From positions 2,187,001 through 2,251,000 of the forward strand of contig NZ_BLPI01000001.1 of the NCBI RefSeq assembly GCF_019649015.1: a stretch of DNA of 64,000 nt. The letters run 5' to 3'. Below the pieces are notes generated by a model that was not told the origin of the DNA, did not search any database, and saw only the letters and a list, made by a program, of their open reading frames with translations. Each line of letters starts with the position of its first letter. Position 1 is the first letter of the stretch. The stretch is from Agarivorans litoreus (lineage in GTDB: Bacteria; Pseudomonadota; Gammaproteobacteria; Enterobacterales; Celerinatantimonadaceae). Below are positions 758 to 9,474 of the stretch, one piece after another. A program made the position numbers and the translations under genes.

Positions 758-903
758 GTTGCTAATCCTTAAAAATTGATGAGATGTTTGCTTGAATTCG
801 CTGATGCTGATTTAAGTATATGTAAACCAGCTTGTCCCTTGGTTTTTTTTTGTCTCTCAAGTACATTGCGCATTAGGGATATTATTTGCTGTGGGGTGAC
901 AGA

Positions 904-1734
904 ATGAAACAGGCAATCTTGGCAGAAATGAAGGTTTTGCCAGAAATTGATCCAGAGTTTGAAGTTAAACGTCGAATCGACTTTATAAAAGCGCGTTTAA
1001 AACAAGCGGGTTTAAAAACACTAGTACTTGGTATTAGTGGCGGTGTTGATTCAACAACCACTGGTCGCTTAGCGCAGTTGGCCGTTGAACAGCTTAACAA
1101 TGAGAATGATAGTCAAGACTACCGCTTTATTGCTATGCGTTTACCTTTTGGTGAGCAAAAAGATGAAGCCGACGCACAACTAGCTTTAGGGTTTATTAAA
1201 CCCTCACATATTGTTACCACTAATATCAAAGCAGGTACCGAAGGCTTGCATACTAGTGCTAGTGAAAGTTTAGTGGCTGCTGGTTTAGATTTACCAGCCC
1301 AAGCTGCAGTGGATTTTGCCAAAGGCAATGTTAAGGCTCGTATGCGCATGATTGCCCAGTATGAGATTGCTGGGTTAAGTGGTGGCCTAGTTATTGGAAC
1401 CGATCACTCAGCTGAAAATTTAACGGGTTTTTACACCAAGCATGGTGATGGTGCCTGTGATTTAGTGCCTATCTTTGGTTTAAACAAACGCCAAGTTCGC
1501 CAGGTTGCAGATTATTTAGGCGCACCAGAAAAGCTGATTGGTAAAGCGCCAACGGCCGATCTTGAAGAAGACCGTCCGCAATTACCCGATGAAGTGGCCT
1601 TAGGTGTTACTTATGACCAAATTGATGACTTCTTAGAAGGTAAGAAAGTAGCCGATGAAGTCGAGCAAAAACTTATTGGCATTTACCAACGTACTCAACA
1701 TAAACGTCAGGCCATTCCTACCATTTACGACTAA
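904..1734 (+). CDS. nadE: ammonia-dependent NAD+ synthetase
   Basis: It makes NAD+ from nicotinate adenine dinucleotide, ATP and ammonia, the final step of NAD biosynthesis. The 276-residue protein is a single N-type ATP pyrophosphatase domain without the glutaminase domain of longer homologues, so it should use free ammonia like E. coli NadE. The P-loop SGGVDS is at residues 45-50, followed by [12 protein letters not shown] and the [15 protein letters not shown] loop typical of the family. I chose the ATG at 904 because GGGGTGAC lies just before it; a TTG at 886 in the same frame would add six residues with no better ribosome-binding site. A hairpin at 1755-1780 follows. Confidence 0.95.
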
Positions 1735-1853: not shown

Positions 1854-2474
1854 TTGGGCAACGCCATCATATTTAGTCTTGATCTATTTGGTACCGCAAT
1901 ATTTGCCATTTCTGGGGTATTGATAGCCAGTCGTCGCCGAATGGATTTGTTTGGTGCCTTGGTGCTTGCCTGTGTTACCGCCATTGGTGGCGGTACTATC
2001 CGCGATATGGCTTTAGGTGCTAGCCCAGTATTCTGGGTAGAGAACGGTTTGTATTTGTGGGTAATTCTTGCAGCTAGTTTAGGCTCGGTATTATTGCTTA
2101 ATAACTTTCCTACACCTCCTCGCTGGTTACTGCCGGTAGCTGATGCTATAGGAATGGCGGTATTTATGGCGATTGGTGCTAACAAAGCCTATCAATATGG
2201 GGCGCCAATGATTGTAGCCGTTACCATGGGAGTGATTACCGCCTGTGGTGGAGGCATGATCCGTGATGTATTGGCTAATCAAGTTCCTTTAGTACTGCAA
2301 CGTGAGGTGTATGCCACTGCTTGTATTGTTGGTGGACTGGTTTGGGTGGCTGCTTTATACCTACAGTTTTCGGATACTATTGCTACAAGTGCTTGTATTT
2401 TGACCGCTTTGCTTATTCGTTTAGTGGCCATTCGCTACCATTTATCACTACCTAAGCTTGCCAAAAATCGTTAG
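1854..2474 (+). CDS. TRIC/UPF0126-family membrane channel (YicG-like)
   Basis: A 206-residue inner-membrane protein made of two repeated UPF0126 halves. Each half carries the family signature: GGGTIRD near residue 42 and GGGMIRD near residue 130. Each is surrounded by three hydrophobic helices, giving the usual six- to seven-helix topology. Bacterial members are homologues of trimeric intracellular cation (TRIC) channels; the physiological substrate of the YicG branch is not settled (some members have been linked to glycine). The start is a TTG at 1854 preceded by AGAGGA seven bases upstream; no in-frame ATG fits better. It stands alone between nadE and the csrB-like array. Confidence 0.85.
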   Translation: MGNAIIFSLDLFGTAIFAISGVLIASRRRMDLFGALVLACVTAIGGGTIRDMALGASPVFWVENGLYLWVILAASLGSVLLLNNFPTPPRWLLPVADAIGMAVFMAIGANKAYQYGAPMIVAVTMGVITACGGGMIRDVLANQVPLVLQREVYATACIVGGLVWVAALYLQFSDTIATSACILTALLIRLVAIRYHLSLPKLAKNR

Positions 2475-2498
2475 TTTGCGATAAATTCCGATAGAGGG

Positions 2499-2516
2499 TG
2501 TGAGATATCTCTTACA
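2499..2516. promoter_or_regulatory. GacA/UvrY-type inverted repeat upstream of csrB-like RNA 1
   Basis: TGTGAG, six bases, CTTACA. This is one mismatch from the TGTAAG-N6-CTTACA box bound by phosphorylated GacA/UvrY in front of csrB/rsmZ-type RNAs. Its centre lies about 165 bases upstream of the presumed RNA start; far-upstream placement is known for E. coli csrB. The role is inferred from family knowledge. Confidence 0.65.
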
Positions 2517-2673
2517 AGCTTGTGCGTTAAAAGCAGTTTTGCTTACAGTTGTTAAAATTAAATTTTCTTTTAAATTAATGGTTTAGTGTTTTTGTAAGAG
2601 TTTGTAAGTAAAAAAATGAAAGTTTTTTGCTTACGCTGCTTTTTCTCAAACTTAGATTCCGTATAGTTGTTTG

Positions 2674-2958
2674 TGCACGGAGGCACTGACGTTTATCAGG
2701 ATGAGAAACGTAGCAGGAGCTAAAAAGGAACAGCTACAGGAAGTAGCAAGGGACACCTCCTAGGAAGGAGACGTGCAACTGGTATGGATGACCGGTTATG
2801 CCATAGAAGGCTAAAGGACAGCTCAAAGGATTTGAGAAAAGGATAACTACAGGACGTAGTAACACAGTCAAAAAGGATTGCAGGGAGCAACTACCCGTTC
2901 ACGGATTTGAGCGATATGACTACCAGGGGCGACACGAAAGTGTCGCCCCGAACTTTTT
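2674..2958 (+). ncRNA. csrB: CsrB/CsrC-type CsrA-sequestering RNA, copy 1
   Basis: A non-coding RNA of about 285 bases that should bind and titrate the translational regulator CsrA. By hand count it carries about 16 GGA triplets, many inside short hairpins (AGGA, CAGGA, GGGA), the hallmark of CsrB. A TATAGT -10 box is at 2662-2667, with no clear -35 box, as expected for activator-dependent transcription. It ends in a ten-base-pair terminator, GGGGCGACAC (2926-2935) and GTGTCGCCCC (2940-2949) with a GAAA loop, then a T-rich tract. The 3' part (GCCATAGAAGGCTAAAGGA and what follows) is shared with the other two copies. The 5' end is inferred from the -10 box. Confidence 0.85.
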
Positions 2959-3138
2959 CTAAACCCAGCCAAGTGCTGGGTTTTTTATTGTCTGAACTTT
3001 GTCATCGATTTTAGATGAATAGTTAAGCTTAAAAGTATTTTGGTAGGTTTTTATGCTTTTAAGGTGTTTATGTTTAGACTTATTGAGAATTTTAGCGTGC
3101 AGAGTTTAGATGCTTGTTTGGCGATCGACCAAAGGCTG

Positions 3139-3156
3139 TGTGAGAGATCGACCATT
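3139..3156. promoter_or_regulatory. GacA/UvrY-like half box upstream of csrB-like RNA 2
   Basis: The half-site TGTGAG (3139-3144) sits in the 13-base string TGTGTGAGAGATC, which occurs identically upstream of copy 3. The second half is degenerate. The site is about 140 bases before the presumed -10 box. Direct copies of GATCGACC at 3123-3130 and 3146-3153 flank it. Confidence 0.45.
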
Positions 3157-3290
3157 CAAATAAGCCGATAAGTCTCTTTGTTTATGAGCGTGAAAAGTAT
3201 TTTTTATTTATTATTCAGTGGCTTATTGTTTTTTACCTCTTAAGTAATAGTTTTGTTTAGATGTTTTTGTTTCTGGCCTACTGGGCTTTG

Positions 3291-3677
3291 GTTGGAATGA
3301 GCGTAAAGTATCAACCATCAGGACGAACCAAGATTCAGGAAGAATTAGGCAGGACGCCGAGGTATTTAGGACGCAGCGCTCAGGATGAGCAGGCTTATCA
3401 AGGTAGATGAGTTTGGATGTCAGCATAGGATTGCTAGAAAGCAAAATACCAAATAGCTTCAGGACGAAGTATAGGGATACCTCCAGGACGGAGAGAGCAA
3501 GTGTTTAGGATGAACGCTTATGCCATAGAAGGCTAAAGGACAGCCCAAAGGAACTGGGAAGAGGAAACGCTAAGGACTAGTGTGAAACAGTCAAAAAGGA
3601 TTGCAGGGAGCAATTAACGTTCATGGAATAGAGCGATATGACTACTAAGAGGGCGACACGTATGTGTCGCCCTTTTT
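3291..3677 (+). ncRNA. csrB: CsrB-type CsrA-sequestering RNA, copy 2
   Basis: A GGA-rich non-coding RNA of about 387 bases, close in size to E. coli CsrB. By hand count it has about 21 GGA triplets, most as CAGGA, TAGGA or AAGGA at regular spacing and many in hairpin loops (for example CTCCAGGACGGAG, 3481-3493). A weak TACTGG -10-like box is at 3279-3284. The terminator has stem GGGCGACAC (3651-3659), loop GTAT and GTGTCGCCC (3664-3672), then TTTTT. No conserved protein is encoded; the overlapping leftward 73-codon frame is low-complexity. Copies 2 and 3 are nearly parallel along their whole length. The 5' end is approximate. Confidence 0.85.
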
Positions 3678-3803
3678 CTTTGCCTGCTATTTATTGTTAG
3701 GGTTTATTACCTATCGGCAGAGCTTTTAATGGATAACCTGTAATTGGTTGGGTTTTTATATTATTAATCTCGATCTGGTAGTTTCTTTATCTGCTATTGC
3801 CTG

Positions 3804-3821
3804 TGTGAGAGATCCGCCCGA
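3804..3821. promoter_or_regulatory. GacA/UvrY-like half box upstream of csrB-like RNA 3
   Basis: TGTGAG at 3804-3809, inside the same TGTGTGAGAGATC string seen before copy 2, again about 140 bases ahead of the presumed -10 box. The right half is not conserved, so binding by GacA/UvrY is inferred from position and half-site only. Confidence 0.45.
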
Positions 3822-3954
3822 GCTGTAGCGGGTAATTTCACTTGTTTAATAAGCCTTAATTAAACTAAGTTTATATATTTCAATGTCTTATGTTTTTCAT
3901 CATGGTTTTTTGTGGCTAGAACCAAAATTATTCTATCTTGGCTACTGGGATTAA

Positions 3955-4343
3955 GGGCTCATCGGCGTAAAGTATCAACCATCAGGACGAGCCAAGGCTT
4001 AGGAAGAGTCAGGGCAAGATGCCAAGGTATTAGGAAGCATTGCTTAGGAAGAGCAGGTTTATCAAGGTAGATAAACTTTAGGATGTCAGCACAGGAGTGC
4101 TAGAAAGCAAAATACCTCAAACTTTCAGGATGAAGTTAAAGGATACCTCCAGGACGGAGAGAGCAAGTGTTTAGGATGAACATTTATGCCATAGAAGGCT
4201 AAAGGATAGCTCAAAGGAACTGGGAAGAGGAAACGCTAAGGATTAGTGTGCAACAGTCAAAAGGATTGCAAGGAGCAATTACTGTTCACGGAAAAGAGCA
4301 ATATGACTACTTAAAAAGGCGACACATTTGTGTCGCCTTTTTT
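3955..4343 (+). ncRNA. csrB: CsrB-type CsrA-sequestering RNA, copy 3
   Basis: The third GGA-rich RNA of the array, about 389 bases, with about 19 GGA triplets by hand count. It shares long blocks with copy 2: GTAAAGTATCAACCATCAGG at the 5' end, CTCCAGGACGGAGAGAGCAA in the middle and AAAGGAACTGGGAAGAGG near the 3' end. A TACTGG -10-like box is at 3943-3948. The terminator is GGCGACAC (4318-4325), loop ATTT, GTGTCGCC (4330-4337), then six T. A preceding A-run lets the hairpin also serve the leftward MATE gene that ends at 4357. The 5' end is approximate. Confidence 0.85.
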
Positions 4344-4356
4344 CACGTTTGTGAAA

Positions 4357-5718
4357 CTAAGATTGTGAATGTTGCCACCAGCTGTTTTTGCTCATTAACC
4401 ATATCAATATGATTAAGCTCGCTAAGCCCGCTAAGGTGTGAGCAATAATAATCGCTAAAAATATTACTTTGCTGCTTCCCCACATTGTTCCAATGTAAAT
4501 AGCTGGCAACATAAAACCAAACAACCTAATTAAGTTTATTGCCATTGCGAGCAGCGGCTTCGCTAAGGCATTTAAGGTTTGGGCTAGCAATAAGGGGACA
4601 GCCATCATGCCGTAGCAAAAAGGTACCAACTGTAAGTAATATTGGCTAAGTTCAGCCACTTCAGCATCGTGATTAAAGCTATAACTCATTAAAGGGGCCA
4701 AGGCGTACATTGCGATAGCGAGCAATAGTTGCCAAACCACCGCTAGCCTAATGGCATGATGAACGATTTGTTGGGCACGTTGTGCTTTACCCGCTCCCAC
4801 GTTTTGTCCAACTAACATCGGAATCACCGAGTTAATCGCCATTACCCCAATTAATAATAGGGCTTCTACCCGAGTAGCAAAGCCATAGGCTGCTACGGTT
4901 GCAGTGCCGGCACTGGCCAAAATTACCAAGGTTATGGTGGTGGCAATGGGAGTAAGTAGCTGAGAAAACACTGCCGGAATGGCTATGCTAAGTAGCTTTT
5001 TCCAAGAGGTGATAAGCTGTTGAATGGTGCAAAATTCAAAACGTAATAGTTTTAATTTAAAACTAAGCAAATAAACAGCAACACTAAAGGTGAGTGCCCA
5101 AGCTACTGCAGTGGCTAAAGCGGCACCCTGCACACCCATAGCTGGCACAGGCCCCCAACCAAAAATAAAAATAGGATCTAATACCCCATTTACGATACCT
5201 GCAACCAGCATCACAAGACTGGGGGTTTTGCTGTCGCCACTGGCCCTTATGGCGCTATTGCCTATCATGGGAATTACTAATAGCGGTACCGAGAGATACC
5301 AAATTTGCATGTATTGCTCAATATAGGGCATTACTGGTAATTCAGCGCCTAAGCGGCTGAAAAGAGGATAAATGCTGAAATAACCTAATCCGGCTACAGA
5401 CATAATTAGCAGTAGGCTAAACAGTAAGCTATGGCTAGTGAGTTGCGCGGCCTGCTGGTGTTGGCGAGCCCCCAAAAGCCGTCCTACATGGGATGACAGG
5501 CCAATGCCTAAGCCCATTGCTACACTGGTAATGGCAAAGGTGATGGGAAAAGTAAAAGATACACCGGCCAACGCATCGGTGCCTAGCATTGCAACAAAAA
5601 AGGTATCAACGAGGTTAAAAAAGATGATCGCAAAAATACCAACCAATGTTGGACTGGCTTTATTGATAATAAGCGGTGTGATGGGAGCATCAAGTAGATA
5701 CTGGCGTTGTTGTTCCAT
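4357..5718 (-). CDS. MATE-family multidrug/sodium antiporter
   Basis: A 453-residue inner-membrane transporter with twelve predicted hydrophobic helices arranged as two MatE repeats. The first starts at IINKASPTLVGIFAIIFFNL and the second begins around residue 235 with SIAIPAVFSQLLTPIATTI. MATE proteins export cationic drugs or organic compounds using Na+ or H+ gradients. The sequence fits the general MATE/DinF-NorM superfamily, and I cannot assign the subfamily or substrate. The length is normal. It is convergent with csrB-like RNA 3, whose A/T-flanked terminator could work in both directions. The upstream region to 5889 is short and shared with the rightward acyltransferase. Confidence 0.85.
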   Translation of the reverse strand: MEQQRQYLLDAPITPLIINKASPTLVGIFAIIFFNLVDTFFVAMLGTDALAGVSFTFPITFAITSVAMGLGIGLSSHVGRLLGARQHQQAAQLTSHSLLFSLLLIMSVAGLGYFSIYPLFSRLGAELPVMPYIEQYMQIWYLSVPLLVIPMIGNSAIRASGDSKTPSLVMLVAGIVNGVLDPIFIFGWGPVPAMGVQGAALATAVAWALTFSVAVYLLSFKLKLLRFEFCTIQQLITSWKKLLSIAIPAVFSQLLTPIATTITLVILASAGTATVAAYGFATRVEALLLIGVMAINSVIPMLVGQNVGAGKAQRAQQIVHHAIRLAVVWQLLLAIAMYALAPLMSYSFNHDAEVAELSQYYLQLVPFCYGMMAVPLLLAQTLNALAKPLLAMAINLIRLFGFMLPAIYIGTMWGSSKVIFLAIIIAHTLAGLASLIILIWLMSKNSWWQHSQS

Positions 5719-5888
5719 TAACTTGCAGCTGGGAAATCGAGGCTTCAGTATACGTGGCTCAAAGGCTAAGCGAAAGATTATGGAGTTAGCTTTAAAAACT
5801 GATGATGGTTGTTTAAATTTTAATCGTTATTGTTGTTTTTAAGAGCAGAAAACGGTAAATTGCGGCTTCCTTAATAGCGAGAGAAGTT

Positions 5889-7010
5889 ATGTCTCAGTTT
5901 GACAGTATTCGCCCTTATCAAGATTCTGAAGTAAAAAGTACGCTACAACGTCTCATTAACGATCCCGAATTTATTACTACTTTAATTAAGTTTCGCTATC
6001 CAAAGGCGCGTGGTGCCTTTCTTACGTTAACTTCTTTTACCTTGCGCCAGGTGCTTAAATTTAAAGTAAGAAATGTAAAAAGTGTTTACGATTTTCAAGT
6101 GATGGTAGAGCGCTATATGGCGCACATGATTAAAACAACTACCTCGCAACTAAGCTCTAGCGGATTAGAGGATTTAGATTTATCTAAACCACATTTGTTT
6201 ATCTCAAATCACCGCGATATTGCGCTAGACCCAGCGTTTGTGAACTACTTGCTGCATATAAATGGCCAAGATACAGTGCAAATTGCCATTGGTGACAACT
6301 TATTAAGTAAGCCTTGGGTGTCTGACTTAATGCGTCTTAACCGCAGTTTTATTGTTAAGCGTTCTGCCACAGCTAAGCGTGAAAAACTGGCCAATTTAAA
6401 AGAGTTATCTGCGTATATTCAACATACTTTGGCGAGCACGGGTGACCACATCTGGATTGCTCAACGTGAAGGGCGAGCTAAAGATGGTTTAGATCTTACA
6501 AATTCTGCGCTTATTTCCATGCTGGCCTTAAATAAACCTAAGCAGCAAGCATTTGCAGATTACATTAAAGAATTGAACATCGTCCCCGTGTCTATTTCTT
6601 ACGAATTTGACCCTTGTGATGTGGCTAAAGCCAACGAATTGGTATCGCAAAATCAACACGGCGAATACCAAAAAGAAGAGCATGAAGACATTTACAGCAT
6701 ATCTCGCGGCATTGTGGGTCAAAAAGGTCACGTTCACGTGCATTTTGCTGAGCCATTAAGTGGAGAATATGCCAATGCAAAAGATGTTGCTGAAGCTTTA
6801 GATAAAGCGATTATTGGTAATTACCAGCTTATGCCTACCAACTGGATCGCCCTTGGTGATGCTATCCCAGAAGAAATTTCGGCTAACGAATTAGCCGAAG
6901 CAAAGCGCTATTTTGAAGCGAAGACTCGCGATATTAGTGCAGAGGTCCGATCTCAGCTGTTCGAAATGTACGCAAATCCTATCCGCGCTAGACAGCAACT
7001 ATCTGAATAA
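5889..7010 (+). CDS. PlsC-type acyltransferase domain protein
   Basis: A 373-residue protein with a glycerol-phosphate acyltransferase fold, probably acting on lysophosphatidate or a related acyl acceptor at the membrane. The catalytic block is ISNHRDIALD at residues 105-114. The second motif is EGRAKDG at 194-200, in place of the usual EGTR. Between them, RLNRSFIVKRSA is the family's acceptor-site region. The catalytic His and Asp are five residues apart (H-x5-D) rather than the classical four, a variant I associate with a separate cytosolic subgroup. No clear membrane helix is seen. The ATG follows GAGAGAAGTT. The substrate is unproven. Confidence 0.75.
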   Translation: MSQFDSIRPYQDSEVKSTLQRLINDPEFITTLIKFRYPKARGAFLTLTSFTLRQVLKFKVRNVKSVYDFQVMVERYMAHMIKTTTSQLSSSGLEDLDLSKPHLFISNHRDIALDPAFVNYLLHINGQDTVQIAIGDNLLSKPWVSDLMRLNRSFIVKRSATAKREKLANLKELSAYIQHTLASTGDHIWIAQREGRAKDGLDLTNSALISMLALNKPKQQAFADYIKELNIVPVSISYEFDPCDVAKANELVSQNQHGEYQKEEHEDIYSISRGIVGQKGHVHVHFAEPLSGEYANAKDVAEALDKAIIGNYQLMPTNWIALGDAIPEEISANELAEAKRYFEAKTRDISAEVRSQLFEMYANPIRARQQLSE

Positions 7011-7389: not shown

Positions 7390-9474
7390 ATGGCCACAAA
7401 AACTCAAGCGGGTGTTTCATTTCCACTCGGCGCCACTTATCAAGGTAAGGGTGTTAACTTTAGTATTTTCTCTAAAAATGCCACGGGAGTTACCCTTCTA
7501 TTATTTAAAGAAGTTAACTCTCGTAAGCCTTTTGCCGAGTTCCCTTTAGATCCAAATACCAACAAAACCGACCATTACTGGCATATTTTTGTTGAAGACC
7601 TAGACGTAGGAACGCTCTACGGCTTTCAAGTCGATGGTCCTTGGCAACCAGAGCGCGGTTTGCGTTTTGACCCAAGTAAGGTATTGCTCGATCCTTACGC
7701 CAGAATTACCCACTTCCCAGATAACTATTTGCGTCAGGTCGCGTCACGCCACGGTCATGTAAATACCAGTCAATGTATTAAAGGTGCAGTGGTAGATTTA
7801 CGTGGTTTTGATTGGCAAGGCACTCACCCAATTAAACGCTCACTGCAAGATACTGTTATTTACGAGCTACACGTAGCGGGTTTTACCAAACACCCATCGT
7901 CTGGTGTAGCAGAGCATAAGCGAGGCACTTATGCTGGGGTAATTGAAAAAATTCCTTACCTAAAAGAACTGGGTATAACTGCCGTGGAATTAATGCCAGT
8001 ACAGCAGTTCGATTTGCAAGATGCTCCTCTAGGTAAGCAAAACTACTGGGGTTACAGCCCAATTAACTTCTTCTCCCCACATACCGCTTACAGCTCCGAC
8101 AAAAGTGTCTGTGGCGCTTTTAACGAATTTAGAACCATGGTGCGTGAGCTGCATAAAGCCGGCATTGAGGTGATATTGGATGTGGTGTTTAACCATACAG
8201 CCGAAGGCGGCCACGACGGCCCAACACTTAGCATGAAGGGCTTGCAAAACGATACCTACTACATGCTAGAAAACGAAAAGCGTTGGTACAGTAACTACTC
8301 GGGTTGCGGCAATACTTGTAATGCTAACCACTCGGTAATGCGCCGTATGATCCGTGACGCACTGCGTTTTTGGGTAAACGAAATGCACGTAGATGGCTTC
8401 CGCTTTGATTTAGCCTCGGTACTAGCGCGTGACTCTGAAGGGCATGTAATGAAAGAGCCACCATTGCTATGGTCGATTGACTCAGACCCTTCATTGGCTG
8501 GCACTAAAATTATTGCTGAAGCTTGGGACGCAGCGGGCCTTTACCAAGTCGGTGAATTTGTTGGTGATCGCTGGAACGAGTGGAATGGTAAATTCCGAGA
8601 TGATGTACGTTCGTTCTTCCGTGGTGATTCAGGTGTTACTGGCAAATTTGCGTCGCGCTTATTGGGCAGCCCAGACATTTATTATAAAGAAAACCATTCG
8701 CCTCAGCGTTCTATTAATTTAGTGACTGCGCACGATGGTTTCACCTTAAACGATTTAGTCAGCTATAACGATAAGCACAACCTCGAAAATGGTGAAAACA
8801 ACCGTGATGGTGATAACCACAACATCAGTTATAACCACGGTGTAGAGGGGCCAACCCTAAACCCAAAAATCAACGACTTGCGTGAACAACAAATGAAGAA
8901 CTTCTTTGCTACTTTGTTGCTCTCTTTGGGTACGCCAATGATTACCATGGGTGATGAAGTAAAACGCACTCAAAACGGTAATAACAACGCCTATTGTCAA
9001 GATAACGAGTTGTCGTGGTTTGACTGGACATTAGTGGACAAAAACCAAAATTTATTGCGCTTTGTGCAAGAGCTTATCAAGTTGCGTCGTTATGACGATG
9101 TATTAGAAGAGAAAATTCACTTGAGCTTGTCGGATGTGATTCATGATGCCAATATCGAATGGCATGGTGTGCATCAAGGTCAGCCAGATTGGTCTGAACA
9201 TAGTCACTCTATTGCGGTTACTTTATTAGATCCATACTCAAAAGACCGCTTATACATGGTGTTTAACTCCTACTGGGAAGAGCTAGAGTTTGAAGTGCCA
9301 TGCATTGAAGGGCATTGGTTTAAGCTTGTTAATACCGCAGCCAAACCGCCAGAAGATGTTTATGACTTTAAAACAGCGCCTATGTTAGAAACAGGCTCAG
9401 TTAAAGTGGCTGCACGTTCGGTAATGGTATTTGTGGCGAACCCACAAATTGAAAAACGTAGTGAGAGAGTTTAA
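7390..9474 (+). CDS. glgX: glycogen debranching enzyme (isoamylase type)
   Basis: It hydrolyses alpha-1,6 branches of glycogen limit dextrins in the cytoplasm. The 694-residue protein has an N-terminal CBM48/isoamylase domain (about residues 10-150) and a GH13 barrel. Barrel motifs in order are DVVFNH, DGFRFDLASVLARD (nucleophile Asp), KIIAEAWD (acid Glu) and NLVTAHDGFTLNDLVSYNDK (third acid), ending in a beta-sandwich domain. The length matches GlgX/TreX enzymes. No other glg gene is adjacent, which is unusual for a glg cluster. The ribosome-binding site before the ATG at 7390 is weak. In relatives glycogen genes are CsrA targets, relevant to the csrB array 3 kb away. Confidence 0.92.
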   Translation: MATKTQAGVSFPLGATYQGKGVNFSIFSKNATGVTLLLFKEVNSRKPFAEFPLDPNTNKTDHYWHIFVEDLDVGTLYGFQVDGPWQPERGLRFDPSKVLLDPYARITHFPDNYLRQVASRHGHVNTSQCIKGAVVDLRGFDWQGTHPIKRSLQDTVIYELHVAGFTKHPSSGVAEHKRGTYAGVIEKIPYLKELGITAVELMPVQQFDLQDAPLGKQNYWGYSPINFFSPHTAYSSDKSVCGAFNEFRTMVRELHKAGIEVILDVVFNHTAEGGHDGPTLSMKGLQNDTYYMLENEKRWYSNYSGCGNTCNANHSVMRRMIRDALRFWVNEMHVDGFRFDLASVLARDSEGHVMKEPPLLWSIDSDPSLAGTKIIAEAWDAAGLYQVGEFVGDRWNEWNGKFRDDVRSFFRGDSGVTGKFASRLLGSPDIYYKENHSPQRSINLVTAHDGFTLNDLVSYNDKHNLENGENNRDGDNHNISYNHGVEGPTLNPKINDLREQQMKNFFATLLLSLGTPMITMGDEVKRTQNGNNNAYCQDNELSWFDWTLVDKNQNLLRFVQELIKLRRYDDVLEEKIHLSLSDVIHDANIEWHGVHQGQPDWSEHSHSIAVTLLDPYSKDRLYMVFNSYWEELEFEVPCIEGHWFKLVNTAAKPPEDVYDFKTAPMLETGSVKVAARSVMVFVANPQIEKRSERV

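Follow-up and report, generated by a model that had tools for sequence, protein, structure and literature searches.

Three CsrB-type small RNA genes in direct tandem in Agarivorans litoreus, read as separate CsrA sponges

Why would a genome line up three GGA-rich units head to tail in one block without genes, and do they work as one regulatory RNA, as three, or not as regulatory RNAs at all? We consider this question for a stretch of 64,000 nucleotides of the Agarivorans litoreus genome (the window, hereafter), in which the block 2475-4356 extends from the stop of the ORF 1854-2474 (+) to the end of the ORF 4357-5718 (-). Its three units lie in direct tandem on the + strand (Table 1). Each of them has an upstream box, a -10 element and a terminator hairpin, and because of this the best reading, which we hold to be very probable, is that of three CsrB-type small RNA genes placed head to tail and transcribed independently of one another, whose products would be UvrY-activated CsrA sponges.

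Table 1. Features of the csrB block, of its surroundings and of the loci compared with it
Feature	Locus	Position	Strand	Remarks
nadE	window	886-1734		upstream of the block
ORF	window	1854-2474	+	best NCBIfam match PRK10578, 222 bits, under its cut-off of 326
UvrY/GacA-type box, copy 1	window	2499..2516	+	full palindrome TGTGAGATATCTCTTACA, 1 mismatch to TGTGAGAGATCTCTTACA
Likely -10 element, copy 1	window	2662..2667	+	TATAGT; missed by sigma-70 scan
csrB copy 1	window	2671..2960	+	~284 nt transcript, 16 GGA; RF00018 at 2653-2960, 86 bits, E 1.8e-21 (whole-window scan)
Intrinsic terminator, copy 1	window	2926..2949	+	hairpin GGGGCGACACGAAAGTGTCGCCCC; listed by simple terminator scan
Second terminator-like hairpin behind copy 1	window	2961..2983	+	simple terminator scan
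UvrY/GacA-type half box, copy 2	window	3139..3149	+	TGTGAGAGATC; second palindrome half missing
Likely -10 element, copy 2	window	3304..3309	+	TAAAGT
csrB copy 2	window	3313..3684	+	~363 nt transcript, 20 GGA; RF00018 at 3359-3684, 81.7 bits, E 3.8e-20
Terminator hairpin, copy 2	window	3651..3672	+	GGGCGACACGTATGTGTCGCCC; absent from the simple scan's list
UvrY/GacA-type half box, copy 3	window	3804..3814	+	TGTGAGAGATC
Likely -10 element, copy 3	window	3968..3973	+	TAAAGT
csrB copy 3	window	3977..4347	+	~365 nt transcript, 19 GGA; RF00018 at 4022-4347, 62.1 bits, E 1e-15
Terminator hairpin, copy 3	window	4318..4337	+	GGCGACACATTTGTGTCGCC; absent from the simple scan's list
MATE transporter gene	window	4357-5718	-	downstream edge of the block
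ORF	window	5889-7010		downstream of the block; no NCBIfam match
glgX (glycogen debranching gene)	window	7390-9474		downstream of the block
ORFs between copies 2 and 3	L038 (G006)	4705-5646, 5675-6181	-	313 and 168 aa
CsrB-like RNA	L039 (G007)	~4460-5141 (reverse complement)		~680 nt
Uncalled GGA-dense blocks	L040; L042	6546-6998; 5815-6279 (reverse complement)
Giant CsrB-like RNA	L045	3705-4462		10.8 modules, 55 GGA, ~760 nt
Giant CsrB-like RNA	L051	3722-4580		12.6 modules, 62 GGA, ~860 nt

A first-pass annotation of the same DNA had described three GGA-rich units of about 285, 387 and 389 bases, with about 16, 21 and 19 GGA triplets by hand count, nearly identical terminators and common 3' blocks, and had taken them for three distinct CsrB-type RNAs. 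The observation itself is confirmed, while the interpretation built on it is partly supported. The ORF bounds agree with a gene-free block, and a recount on the + strand returned the same 16 (2675-2955), 21 (3290-3680) and 19 triplets (3955-4345), and of 1000 dinucleotide shuffles made for each copy, 0, 0 and 2 had as many in copies 1, 2 and 3, respectively. One of the 21 triplets of copy 2 lies upstream of its likely start, which leaves 20 in the transcript. When 300-base segments were taken every 50 bases on both strands, all those with at least nine GGA fell in this block, where the highest count is 18, against 8 elsewhere. The length given for copy 1 holds, whereas those of copies 2 and 3 come out shorter once the transcripts are measured from the conserved -10 elements, the 5' ends being predicted. 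The three copies do share two 3' blocks, one of 69 nt at 83-84% identity and one of 53 nt at 64-89%, and copies 2 and 3 have 185 nt at 90% identity in common in their 3' part. Overall pairwise identity in the window amounts to 68% for copies 1 and 2, 63% for copies 1 and 3 and 85% for copies 2 and 3.

The covariance-model search that had been suggested for the block matched all three copies with the CsrB/RsmB family (RF00018). Copies 1 and 2 pass its gathering score of 71 bits, and copy 3, scored in a 2-kb scan, stays under it at 62.1 bits; copy 3 is classed as CsrB because it is homologous to copy 2 (85% identity, and the tree described below), and not through the Rfam cut-off. In the whole 4.34-Mb genome, no Rfam CsrB match other than these three was found at E<=0.001. 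Matches of the block to MicX, STnc320, STnc40 and other Rfam families were far under their cut-offs and were rejected as chance.

The box upstream of copy 1 has a chance expectation of 0.01 per window, and we take it to be of the UvrY/GacA type. Its 18-base site also stands, without mismatch, 191 nt upstream of the annotated csrB of E. coli K-12. Searching the 64-kb window with the full-palindrome pattern and up to three mismatches found the box of copy 1 alone, so the half-box form of copies 2 and 3 was read from the relatives; TGTRAGAGATC, a pattern picked after the sites had been seen, has two matches in the window (3139 and 3804; chance expectation 0.01). Among the seven genomes of the genus, the distance from box to start is 170-175 nt in 23 units out of 23 (~173 nt here), the boxes having been chosen by hand among regular-expression matches. 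Both box halves are present in 7/7 units at position 1, and the first half only in the 16/16 others. The -10 element follows the same division, with TATAGT in all seven copy-1 units and, in the others, TAAAGT (15/16) or TATAGT (1/16). A sigma-70 scan placed a promoter at none of the three starts (1 site, against 6.0 in shuffles), and the three predicted promoters lack a clear -35, which would fit an activator-dependent promoter. At the 3' end, every copy has a hairpin of GGCGACAC type. All three units are non-coding, with a predicted promoter, a terminator hairpin and a UvrY/GacA box (a half box in copies 2 and 3), in keeping with three distinct CsrB/RsmB-type RNAs.

From these elements one can propose a course of events. 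Phosphorylated UvrY would bind the box that precedes each start by ~173 nt and activate a promoter with a recognisable -10 and no good -35; each RNA would end at its own hairpin, and its GGA motifs would bind CsrA dimers and remove CsrA from mRNAs. The genome encodes the partners, namely a single csrA gene and homologues of UvrY (72% identity), BarA (46%) and CsrD (29%, its frame of 630 aa being intact), as judged with E. coli K-12 proteins as queries. The CsrD homologue would be the candidate for the turnover of these RNAs, which in the CsrB/RsmB family depends on CsrD. Transcription of the three RNAs, their dependence on UvrY and their binding to CsrA are what we infer from sequence.

The alternative that survives best keeps the short RNAs and adds a longer one, read through over two or three units and acting as a larger sponge in some condition. 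It has precedents: PrrH arises by terminator read-through at prrF1-prrF2 of Pseudomonas aeruginosa (according to the accessible portion of a review), and Northern bands of 700, 600 and 450 nt are given for csrB2 of Shewanella (PMC3171408, cited from part of its text). At the same locus in Alginatibacterium sediminis (G007), one ~680-nt RNA with 47 GGA carries the conserved CsrB body twice, and the TTTTT run between the bodies is absent. In the present array, however, a strong hairpin and a box at constant spacing belong to every unit, two terminator-like hairpins follow copy 1, and the ~350 and ~300 nt between units are poorly conserved as judged from their box-to-promoter part, so that we consider read-through unlikely.

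The predicted folds bear on whether the GGA triplets are displayed as in known sponges. They lie in hairpin loops in 7/16, 9/20 and 7/19 cases for copies 1, 2 and 3 (about four in ten), whereas the shuffles average 1.4-1.6 such triplets and peak at 5-6, so that 0/100 reached the observed number for each copy. The placement of GGA in hairpin loops expected by the first-pass annotation is thus found above shuffles by number; by the fraction of GGA in loops, 2, 2 and 8 of 100 shuffles match the observed values, and more than half of the triplets sit outside hairpin loops. All three predicted folds have the many GGA, many of them in hairpin loops, that characterize CsrB/RsmB, and their folding energies have z values of -4.7, -3.5 and -4.0. 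Consensus folds built from 11 copy-1-type and 16 copy-2/3-type sequences have double-sided changes at 15/78 and 9/80 consensus pairs, respectively. When compared with six relatives (the fifth copy of G003 serving as counterpart of copy 3), the GGA columns of copies 1 and 2 show 100% identity and those of copy 3 show 96.5-100%. For copies 1, 2 and 3, identity drops to 94, 80 and 72% in the non-GGA transcript columns, and to 59, 49 and 45% in the spacers from box to promoter. As the GGA columns are kept while the spacers diverge, all three copies look maintained.

This conservation also weighs on the possibility that copy 1 matters alone or together with copy 2, the remaining one or two copies being recent duplicates in decay. 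Copy 3 does have the lowest Rfam score and the lowest mean conservation among relatives (0.863, against 0.96 for copy 1), but its GGA columns hold at 96.5-100% in 6/6 relatives next to a spacer that falls to 45%, and its box, -10 and terminator are kept in 7/7 genomes (copies 3-5 of G003 all counted), which makes this reading very improbable. That the block is GGA-rich coding or unrelated sequence, with a merely compositional resemblance to CsrB, can be dismissed almost outright: it does hold short ORFs, of up to 73 aa, but none spans a csrB unit, and the covariance-model E-values of 1e-15 to 6e-23 (2-kb scan), the covariation and the position-specific conservation all stand against it.

Three separately transcribed sponges, the reading we prefer, need not be interchangeable. 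Judged by their sequences, they do not amount to three doses of the same RNA: copy 1 belongs to a lineage apart, shares 63-68% identity with the other two and has a different type of box. The array is kept across the genus Agarivorans, with three copies in five of the six other genomes of the genus (G001, G002, G004-G006) and five in G003, where all five units stand in tandem at the same locus with a box and a terminator on each; the number of half-box csrB genes is accordingly two in most of these genomes and four in G003. In an IQ-TREE phylogeny of 30 units, the copy-1 units of the genus cluster as one clade (support 91/89) that joins the Alginatibacterium and Aliagarivorans units (99/96), apart from copies 2 and 3, whose own grouping is weak (83/64). 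Copies 2-5 of G003 cluster together, again with weak support (86/88), and its copies 3 and 4 share 98.4% identity, their upstream regions being likewise alike. By the tree and these identities, copy 1 split off early as a paralogue, and the half-box part of the array was duplicated or converted more recently. A strict orthology of copies 2 and 3 by position throughout the genus was rejected, for position 2 needs 3 changes on the tree and the positions from 3 onward need 4. In G006, an insertion of ~2 kb between copies 2 and 3 carries two ORFs.

A difference in the response of copy 1 (full box) and copies 2/3 (half boxes) to UvrY can be weakly inferred; if it exists, the array would set how much sponge is made and also how the response is shaped. 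One may speculate that full and half boxes stand for different thresholds and array length for dose. The gene dosage and fine tuning of CsrA sequestration proposed by the first-pass annotation are in this respect plausible.

The surroundings of the array are conserved as well. nadE, the homologue of the ORF 1854-2474 and the MATE gene lie beside it in 9/11 family relatives. glgX is near csrB in 11/11 of them, including G008 and G010, in which nadE is not nearby; this proximity may reflect a tie to carbon storage or mere linkage.

How the array compares with known systems can be seen first from E. coli csrB (RF00018), with which it shares the GGA hairpins, the elements GGACACCUCC-AGGA-GGAGA and GCAGGGAGCA, the terminator and the upstream UvrY box; it differs in having three copies side by side, in the half palindromic box of copies 2/3 and in a box position of -170 to -175, against -191 in E. 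coli. The closest likeness in arrangement is csrB1/csrB2 of Shewanella oneidensis, neighbours with a UvrY box on each, named as TGTAAGN6CTTACA, which are separately transcribed and depend on BarA/UvrY; the two Shewanella genes measure 420/421 bp and are separated by a transposase gene, as opposed to three copies here without a gene between, and five in one relative (PMC3171408, from the portion available). In Aliivibrio salmonicida and Vibrio tasmaniensis, csrB copies also arose by duplication, and redundancy and differential regulation are discussed; A. salmonicida has one adjacent pair, csrB2/csrB3, and V. tasmaniensis has csrB1-4 in different gene neighbourhoods, so that neither has an array of three or more in the accessible text (PMC6262261). 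Pseudomonas brassicacearum has tandem sponge RNAs as well, rsmX-1/rsmX-2, which are GacA-dependent and 75% identical, but these are two RNAs of 110 nt belonging to a shorter class (PMC7911923, in part). Pseudoalteromonas fuliginea matches the number of three Csr sponge RNAs with Pf1-Pf3 (25, 21 and 9 GGA), each of which, unlike here, is reported from a separate intergenic region, with distant locus tags for Pf2 and Pf3 (PMC11882849, in part).

These cases contradict the view of the first-pass annotation that clustering as such is unusual, since tandem pairs are published in Shewanella, Aliivibrio and Pseudomonas and we find them in several families of the order (G020, G021, G022 and G025, for example). 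In a set of 60 genomes made of relatives and weighted toward the genus and the family, 32 have CsrB matches, and 9 of these 32 have at least three separate matches no more than ~1.1 kb apart, the places having been read by hand: G000-G005, G009 and G011 in the window's family (the last two being Aliagarivorans taiwanensis and marinus) and G030 in another one. G007 has three CsrB matches yet two RNAs. We therefore discarded the possibility that three clustered csrB genes are unique to this genome, and clustering appears less unusual than supposed, with pairs found order-wide and triplets mainly in the window's family. In a wider sample, at least 161 of 295 genomes have CsrB matches. A 2014 review, as far as its accessible part goes, tabulates Csr/Rsm siblings as 2-3 copies and 'distal'. 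A literature search that covered few subscription papers yielded no description of a direct tandem of at least three csrB genes and no paper dealing with both Agarivorans and CsrB. What is unusual is a csrB cluster that is conserved and gains copies in relatives; the type of RNA is well known.

G030 (L049) represents a second lineage with three tandem CsrB matches, the third of only 43 bits; this third copy has, by eye, its own UvrY-type box TGTGCGAGATCGCTTACA, and one further box lies upstream. In G008 and G010, a GGA-dense block with a terminator-like hairpin stands beside the Rfam CsrB match and is not called by Rfam. These two blocks (L040 and L042) are probably further diverged csrB copies, and because they go uncalled Rfam would undercount csrB; the array itself shows that real copies can fall under the cut-off.

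Giant CsrB-like RNAs occur in Moritella-type genomes (G012, G058; Moritella sp. PE36, DT_65). In those of L045, L051, L058 and L061, a 51-nt module that carries three GGA is repeated in tandem inside the RNA, and exact matches to 26 bases of this module number 1 to 19 in 11/11 genomes of the Moritella genus, where contig ends truncate several of the arrays. PE36 has several module RNAs in tandem, of 2.9 to 9.8 modules, and each complete one has a box and a terminator to itself. These RNAs seem to carry a variable number of 51-nt modules that putatively bind CsrA. No paper covering both Moritella and CsrB was found in the literature search.

As for what such an array means for the cell, the reason for several CsrB copies is named outright as an open question in the Vibrio study (PMC6262261, in the part available). 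We offer, tentatively and with less than even confidence, that the array is an evolvable dosage device, in which a separately tuned copy 1 with a palindromic box accompanies a half-box csrB block that varies by unequal recombination, an idea that would extend to the ~680-nt RNA of Alginatibacterium, which may be a fusion of two tandem csrB copies, and to the Moritella modules. If this is true, the CsrA-sequestering capacity of the cell would be set by the length of the array. With close relatives that have three or five copies and with two kinds of box, dosage and differential input can be separated at a single locus.
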